From contig NZ_ATUW01000005.1 in the NCBI RefSeq assembly GCF_000420405.1, forward strand, positions 1 through 64,000: a stretch of DNA of 64,000 nucleotides. Direction: 5' to 3'. A program made the translations under genes and the position numbers. Every line of letters starts with the position of its first letter. Within the stretch, counting starts at the first letter, position 1. The notes beneath the pieces were generated by a model that saw only the letters and a list, made by a program, of their open reading frames with translations, had not been told where the DNA came from and made no database searches. The stretch is from Winkia neuii subsp. neuii DSM 8576. GTDB lineage: Bacteria; Actinomycetota; Actinomycetes; Actinomycetales; Actinomycetaceae. Of this stretch, positions 1-1,645 are shown piece by piece.

Positions 1-375
1 GGTTGCGCCCTGGTTATGTTTGCGTCCCTCGCAACATGATTTTTTGCCGCCCTTGTGCGGGCCAGCAGCAATTAGGCGTCCCTTTTTGTCCTTGCGGCCT
101 TCACAACATGATTTTTTCTTATGTTTAGAGGTCGAAGCAGAGTTCTTCTCGCCCGATTTCTTAGCGTTTGCCTCCGTCTCATGCGCCTTGCCTTTTTCTG
201 TACCCTGAGATTTATCTGGAGCAGCTGATTTGGAATCTGTGCTCTGCTGTGACGCTGTGGCTGTGTGCCCGGCTGGACCGGAAGATGAGTCAGAAATTGA
301 GCAGCCCGTCAGAGGCAGCACGGAAAGCAAGGCGATAGCTGCAGTTGAGGCTATCAGGCAGCGGTTAGTTTTCAT
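1..375 (-). CDS. Lipoprotein with repeated Cys-Cys motif, 3' end outside window
   Basis: This frame stays open from an ATG at 375 (minus strand) to the window edge, giving 125 residues without a stop, so the C-terminus is missing. An AGGA stands 8 bases before the ATG. The product starts with a signal peptide ending in a lipobox (LTGC, lipidated Cys25), so it should be anchored on the outer face of the membrane. Residues 26-86 form a low-complexity Ser/Thr/Ala/Lys linker. The motif KKSCCEGRK then occurs at 87-95 and again at 111-119, a 24-residue period, and more copies may follow outside the window. I recognise no family. Paired cysteines among basic residues could bind metal or form disulfides, but that is conjecture. 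Confidence 0.75.
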   Translation of the reverse strand, partial: MKTNRCLIASTAAIALLSVLPLTGCSISDSSSGPAGHTATASQQSTDSKSAAPDKSQGTEKGKAHETEANAKKSGEKNSASTSKHKKKSCCEGRKDKKGRLIAAGPHKGGKKSCCEGRKHNQGAT

Positions 376-920
376 GGGGATTGTCCTTTTGTAATGAGAT
401 TAGGTAGATGACAGACAAATTGAAACTGCGTCAATAGTCTCCACGTAGATTTCGAAAATGTCCGCCTTGCGAAATTAGCAGCTACAGAATTACCACAGTT
501 ATTGCCCCATTTCCAGATTAGAGGTTAAATAGGCGAAAATGTATGAGATTCGCAGGTGAATTAATAAGAAATATTTATCACTGCGTAAATATGGTAGTAG
601 ACACAATTATATCGGTTTGCAGGTAATTTCTTGAAATATATAAAAGATTTGGATCTCGGTGATTGGAAGGCGAGAGGACGCGTCGGAGCGTAGCTAAAGG
701 CAGGCTTAATTTTTCGGAATGCGGCTGGTGCGAAGAGCGAAACTAGCTCTGGGATGTACGCCAAGATGTTCATAAGTTGAGATTGCGAAAGCTTGAGTCT
801 GCGCGACAATCGTCACATAGGGGCTAGGGTTTCCGGCCAGACGGCAGCGCCGGATGGTTGGGGGAGGCTCGACAACGGGCGGGTGAGACAACCGAAAACG
901 CGGCAAGGGGCCAAACAGAG
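376..920. other. Long AT-rich intergenic region
   Basis: These 545 bases separate the lipoprotein start from the 3' end of the tRNA gene. The part from about 400 to 650 is clearly richer in A and T than the neighbouring genes. Short frames on both strands have no convincing ribosome binding site or recognisable product. The stretch must hold the lipoprotein promoter and the end of the tRNA transcript, but I can point to no clear hairpin terminator or consensus promoter. Confidence 0.5.
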
Positions 921-994
921 TAGCTCAGGTGGGATTCGAACCCACAACATGCCGATTTTGAGTCGACCGCCTCTGCCAATTGGGCCACTGAGCC
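921..994 (-). tRNA. tRNA-Leu (anticodon CAA), short variable loop
   Basis: The minus strand folds into a complete cloverleaf of 74 bases. The acceptor stem is 7 bp with a terminal G-U pair, the D stem is GCC/GGC, and the anticodon stem is 5 bp around loop CTCAAAA with anticodon CAA (958-960), which reads the leucine codon UUG. The T arm is GTGGG-TTCGAAT-CCCAC, the discriminator base is A, and no CCA is encoded. The variable loop is only 5 bases (ATGTT), whereas bacterial tRNA-Leu usually carries a long variable arm. I recall a short tRNA-Leu(CAA) of similar length near the same regulator gene in mycobacteria, so the form may be conserved in actinobacteria, but I cannot check this. Confidence 0.93.
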
Positions 995-1021
995 GTGGAA
1001 GAAAACTTCCTAGGAACATAT

Positions 1022-1027
1022 TAGAGT
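1022..1027 (+). promoter_or_regulatory. -10 element TAGAGT, leaderless start of the ANTAR regulator
   Basis: TAGAGT fits the actinobacterial TANNNT pattern and ends 6 bases before the GTG at 1034, so transcription should begin at or next to the start codon. There is no well-spaced Shine-Dalgarno sequence. Confidence 0.5.
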
Positions 1028-1033
1028 ATAAGG

Positions 1034-1645
1034 GTGAGTGAATCTAAATTGAAATCGGAATCTGGTAAGTCCAATGGCCGCCGCGTGCTGGTTGTTGAGG
1101 ACGAGGCGCTCATTCGCCTAGATATTGTCGAGACACTGACTGACGCTGGCTACGAGGTTGTAGGCGAGGCGGCAGACGGTGAAGAGGCAGTTCAGAAGGC
1201 TTTTGAACTGGAACCTGACCTGTGCGTCATGGATGTAAAAATGCCCAAGATGGACGGCATTACGGCAGCAGAAAAGATAATGGCCGAACTTAGTTGTGCA
1301 GTGGTAATGCTCACAGCATTTTCGCAGACTGAGTTGGTTGAACGTGCGCGTGACGCTGGAGCTATGGCGTACGTTGTGAAGCCGTTCACCCCGGCTGAAT
1401 TACTGCCCGCTGTCGAGATCGCATTCTCTAGGCACTCAGAGATGATGTCACTCGAAGAGGAAATCGCCGATATGAGTGAGCGTTTCGAGACTCGCAAGGC
1501 CGTGGATCGAGCTAAAGGTCTTCTGATGGACCGCATGGGCATGACTGAGCCTGAATCGTTCCGATGGATACAAAAGACCTCGATGGATAGGCGCCTGTCC
1601 ATGCGCGAGGTTGCAGACGCGGTAATCGACCAGGTAGGCGAATAA
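1034..1645 (+). CDS. pdtaR: ANTAR-domain response regulator (PdtaR-like)
   Basis: This 203-residue protein has an N-terminal receiver domain with the acidic pair in VVEDEA, the phospho-accepting Asp in VMDVKMP and the conserved Lys in VVKPF. A C-terminal ANTAR domain follows (about 145-200, AKGLLMDRMGM). ANTAR proteins bind paired RNA hairpins when phosphorylated and relieve transcription termination; the mycobacterial homologue Rv1626 answers the kinase PdtaS. No sensor kinase gene lies in this window. The GTG start fits the residue context and the upstream -10 element. The gene converges on the thioesterase gene with a shared terminator, and the polA and rpsA neighbourhood matches Rv1626-Rv1630. 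Confidence 0.92.
   Translation: MSESKLKSESGKSNGRRVLVVEDEALIRLDIVETLTDAGYEVVGEAADGEEAVQKAFELEPDLCVMDVKMPKMDGITAAEKIMAELSCAVVMLTAFSQTELVERARDAGAMAYVVKPFTPAELLPAVEIAFSRHSEMMSLEEEIADMSERFETRKAVDRAKGLLMDRMGMTEPESFRWIQKTSMDRRLSMREVADAVIDQVGE

Follow-up and report, generated by a model that had tools for sequence, protein, structure and literature searches.

The gene at the start of the window, by which we mean the whole stretch of DNA analysed (64,000 nucleotides, bases 1-64000 of contig C5 of genome G000, with a G+C content of 54%), appears from its sequence to encode a lipid-anchored envelope protein, which is probably disordered, carries at least six copies of a cysteine-pair motif and is known in this analysis from one genus only. 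As its likeliest role we tentatively suggest an envelope-tethered array of Cys and His ligands for a soft metal, with disulfide cross-linking as a close rival.

The lipoprotein gene and its probable continuation on a second contig

The open reading frame covers positions 1..375 of the - strand, encodes 125 amino acids and is open at base 1. Its features are given below, together with those shared with G001, a closed genome of the same genus.

Positions 1..375, - strand: 5' part of the lipoprotein gene, cut by the contig end; 125 codons with signal peptide, LTGC, linker and two Cys-pair motifs
Positions 301..375, - strand: predicted signal peptide and lipobox, residues 1-25, MKTNRCLIASTAAIALLSVLPLTGC; read from sequence, with LTGCS kept in the G001 orthologue
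Positions 91..117, - strand: motif copy 1, KKSCCEGRK, residues 87-95
Positions 19..45, - strand: motif copy 2, KKSCCEGRK followed by H, residues 111-119
Positions 376..389, - strand: predicted ribosome-binding region AAAGGACAATCCCC ahead of the ATG, read from sequence
Positions 472..494, - strand: conserved upstream element GGTAATNCTGTAGCTGCTNATTT, 23 bases, in G000 and G001

The N-terminus has a signal peptide with a lipobox ending in G/A/S-C, which by inspection reads MKTNRCLIASTAAIALLSVLPLTG followed by C, and the LTGCS of the window protein is also present in G001. This agrees with the original prediction of a lipoprotein, and the protein would be lipidated at Cys25 and exported. The signal peptide is followed by a linker rich in S/T/A/K and by the two copies of KKSCCEGRK, the Cys pairs of which lie 24 residues apart. 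The repeat of these nine residues at 87-95 and 111-119 had been pointed out before and holds up against chance: the longest exact repeat in 20,000 shuffles of the window protein was 7 residues and a repeated 9-mer never occurred. The upstream element GGTAATNCTGTAGCTGCTNATTT occurs once each in G000 and G001 (G001:C1:1035298-1035320, L093), both times 5' of the lipoprotein gene. It was found nowhere else in the three genus genomes with up to 3 mismatches, which gives no sign of a wider regulon, and it is a possible promoter or regulatory site.

The frame had been noted to be open at the edge; the reason is that contig C5 itself starts at base 1, where the assembly breaks. Another contig of the same genome, C14, starts inside a further copy of the motif (EGRKH), encodes EGRKHTAAPTHAMPTHRPQTSHPQPTRKPCCEGKEH... 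and contains three more copies (RKPCCEGKEH) with a 33-residue (99-bp) period, and the frame then ends at a stop codon that follows residue 111. In the window, the last copy has the codons TGC GAG GGA CGC AAA CAT, and C14 starts with GAG GGA CGC AAA CAC. The two contig ends have 14 bases in common inside the motif and diverge after these, which indicates that C14 opens in another copy, the first part of which was lost in the gap. Together with the copies in the window, those on C14 make a gene with at least six copies, and the gap may hold more. An extension past the window start had been proposed as a check on the repeat; a stop adjacent to base 1, an absence of further copies and an existing family were the three outcomes that would have spoken against the prediction, and none of them was found.

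The gene order around both contig ends was compared within the genus, using gene names read from the sequences and not taken from annotation. Past the stop, C14 encodes a DMT-family transporter, pyk (about 1.3 kb past the lipoprotein stop), lgt and trp genes. The neighbours on C5 are tRNA-Leu and an ANTAR response regulator, about 0.6 kb upstream of the gene start, a thioesterase and polA. G001 contains a continuous 650-aa open reading frame (L027:4256-6208, - strand) between pyk and the ANTAR regulator, which is 50% identical to the window protein over 125 aa (E 7.5e-22). Both the sequence match and the shared pyk/ANTAR flanks identify it as the orthologue, and this synteny supports the joining of C5 and C14. 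In G002, the third genome of the genus, no convincing gene was found in the slot from pyk to tRNA-Leu (about 1 kb, L069:4848-5906).

It is very improbable that the two contigs are not joined here and that the gene is limited to the two copies of the window. Their ends have no direct suffix-prefix overlap and match over only 14 bp inside the motif, but both lie within the same motif, the gene order agrees with that of G001, and the frame is continuous there with four copies. C14 thus very probably carries the other end of the gene, although the contig gap is unclosed. The most likely cause of the break at base 1 is that the repeat array failed to assemble; draft assemblies break in such arrays, which conceals their copy number.

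The surroundings of the gene differ within the genus. The pair of tRNA-Leu(caa) and ANTAR regulator is inverted in G001 compared to G000 and G002 (window 920-1645; L027:6611-7338; L069:5906-6636), and the DMT transporter flanks the slot on one side or the other depending on the genome. Since transporter and tRNA/ANTAR pair are placed or oriented differently in G001, the slot has been rearranged, and this slot beside a tRNA gene is a small rearrangement hot spot.

Conservation, spacing and distribution of the motif

The orthologue in G001 resembles the window gene in its pyk/ANTAR slot, signal peptide, LTGC lipobox and KKSCC[ED]GK repeats. A comparison of repeat number among relatives had been proposed earlier, and copy number does differ: at least six in G000, four plus a terminal SCCG in G001, and no gene in the slot of G002. 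In G000 the CC array extends to the C-terminus, whereas in G001 it is followed by three CPHHGPIY units that are absent from the assembled G000 sequence. These units read NMV[DN]CPHHGPIYxKAKADNAxL (x3), each within a Lys/Ala/Glu-rich and probably helical stretch. The NMV[DN]CPHHGPIY units had no Pfam match above cut-off. The CPHHGPIY unit occurred in none of 396 genomes drawn from the order, but G001, which served as positive control, fell outside that draw, so this number shows little beyond the absence from the G000 assembly.

The 24-residue period of the original prediction did not survive the additional copies. Successive Cys pairs are 24, then 33 and 33 residues apart in G000 and 26, 25 and 34 in G001; the spacing thus ranges from 24 to 34 residues without a single period. 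What is conserved is the unit [KR]x-C-C-[ED]-G-[KR]-x-(H), embedded in low-complexity linkers. The two copies in the window differ by 4 synonymous and 0 non-synonymous changes, and over the eight-codon core of nine complete copies pS was 0.81 and pN 0.125, a comparison in which the three C-terminal copies weigh little as they are recent duplicates. This synonymous excess implies that the motif is kept under selection as a peptide and not as DNA, for which there is good evidence. The residue at +6, counted from the first Cys, is His in 7 of 10 copies (post hoc test with duplicates and orthologous pairs collapsed, P about 3e-4). In both species the first copy has Asp in place of this His.

CC is present in every complete copy, though Cys is scarce in the genome. 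In a sample of G000 of about 476 kb, in which a crude call gave 370 open reading frames of at least 100 aa, Cys made up 1.0% of residues and 20 CC pairs were counted. Four of the 370 frames had at least two CC pairs, and the window gene was the only one that combined a clear lipobox with a repeated lysine-rich CC motif.

Two of the three genus genomes have clustered copies of the motif, and 210 other genomes of the family have none; among these 213 genomes the pattern formed clusters only in G000 (five hits, in the gene and its C14 part) and G001 (three hits, in the same gene). Isolated matches in other genera were about as frequent as in the reversed control. Clustered CC motifs were also absent from 395 other genomes drawn from the phylum, and two wider scans of genome contigs, which may omit near relatives, gave no confirmed relatives. 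A phage or plasmid origin was rejected, as no protein match was obtained in phages, plasmids or viral contigs. None of the papers searched contained the string KSCCEG, or 'vicinal cysteine' together with lipoprotein, repeat and Actinobacteria.

Possible roles of the cysteine pairs

A metal- or thiol-related role, suggested at first from the two window copies, is possible and gains a little from the His at +6 and from the three CPHH in the orthologue. In the ligand array that we tentatively prefer, the motif copies would be displayed at the envelope on a tether rich in Lys, Ser, Pro and His. Each Cys pair could form, with a nearby His, a small site for a soft metal (Zn, Cu or similar), and the protein as a whole would bind metals in an array at the membrane's outer face. 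The Cys pairs with His, and the CPHH of the orthologue, would suit soft-metal binding. Against this reading stand the Asp in place of His in the first copy and the absence of a match to any metal-protein family. In addition, no metal-transport or metal-regulated genes were seen beside the lipoprotein gene, and its neighbours are housekeeping genes (pyk, lgt, trp genes, ANTAR regulator, polA, rpsA), which also counts against a metal role.

Alternatively, but somewhat less probably, the protein could be a disulfide tether or cross-linker, in which a putative oxidation of the Cys pairs by MdbA/VKOR links molecules of this protein with one another or with other surface proteins in a wall-proximal mesh. 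VKOR scored over cut-off in G000, G001 and G002. Exported thiols are therefore probably oxidised, which favours disulfides over metal binding, and cross-linking would suit a disordered tether from which Cys pairs are exposed at intervals. It is established for Actinomyces oris that exported pilus proteins are folded oxidatively through MdbA (PMC5478893). However, VKOR is unspecific, since it is also encoded in G002, which is without the protein, and cross-linking would not need the recurrent His.

We regard it as unlikely that the protein is a lineage-specific, low-complexity surface spacer, with a Cys motif that tandem duplication has multiplied and that is without specific chemistry. The gene is confined to two of the three genus genomes and missing from its slot in the third species, divergence among the linkers is unconstrained, and a 99-bp tandem duplication has recently produced the C-terminal array, all of which would fit a spacer. 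Such a protein would hardly explain the strong synonymous bias between the motif copies, nor the retention of CC in all complete copies at the low Cys content of the genome sample.

Returning to the ligand array, its most elaborate form is doubtful when taken as a whole: an undescribed kind of envelope protein, consisting of a lipid-tethered disordered chain in which a metal-site motif under selection, C-C-[ED]-G-x-x-H, recurs in differing copy numbers and to which one species adds an accessory helical CPHH module. Such a protein would be a surface array that buffers or acquires metal. Should the motif bind metal, it would represent a small and portable metal site outside the cell, evolving through the expansion of repeats, and a peptide that is easily tested. 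If it does not, the protein would be another lineage-specific low-complexity lipoprotein.

Relation to known protein families

The original prediction knew of no family with this repeat, and this still stands: no Pfam or NCBIfam family exceeded its curated cut-off for the window protein or the orthologue, and no PDB chain matched the G001 orthologue. The best profiles below threshold were PF21827 New_glue (18.9 of 31 bits), PF08614 ATG16 (22.3 of 33.7 bits) and NF040598 Ala_zip_lipo (16.4 of 43 bits), which resemble the protein in composition only; the ATG16 and Ala_zip matches fall on the coiled-coil part of the G001 orthologue. Two PHROG matches (E about 1e-3) fell on the signal/linker stretch and on the coiled-coil part, covered no defining feature and were attributed to composition. 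A single-sequence AlphaFold2 model had a mean pLDDT of 53.6 and no helix or strand of at least 3 residues. Such a model is weak evidence, but, taken with the composition, it agrees with a disordered protein.

In Pfam and NCBIfam, no metallothionein family was matched at E values up to 10. Metallothioneins, like other Cys-rich metal-binding peptides, have repeated short Cys motifs and lack a hydrophobic core. The protein described here resembles them in these two respects, a likeness that is mechanistic only. It differs from them in that it is predicted to be lipid-anchored and exported, in its Cys content of about 5%, and in having its Cys pairs 24-34 residues apart.
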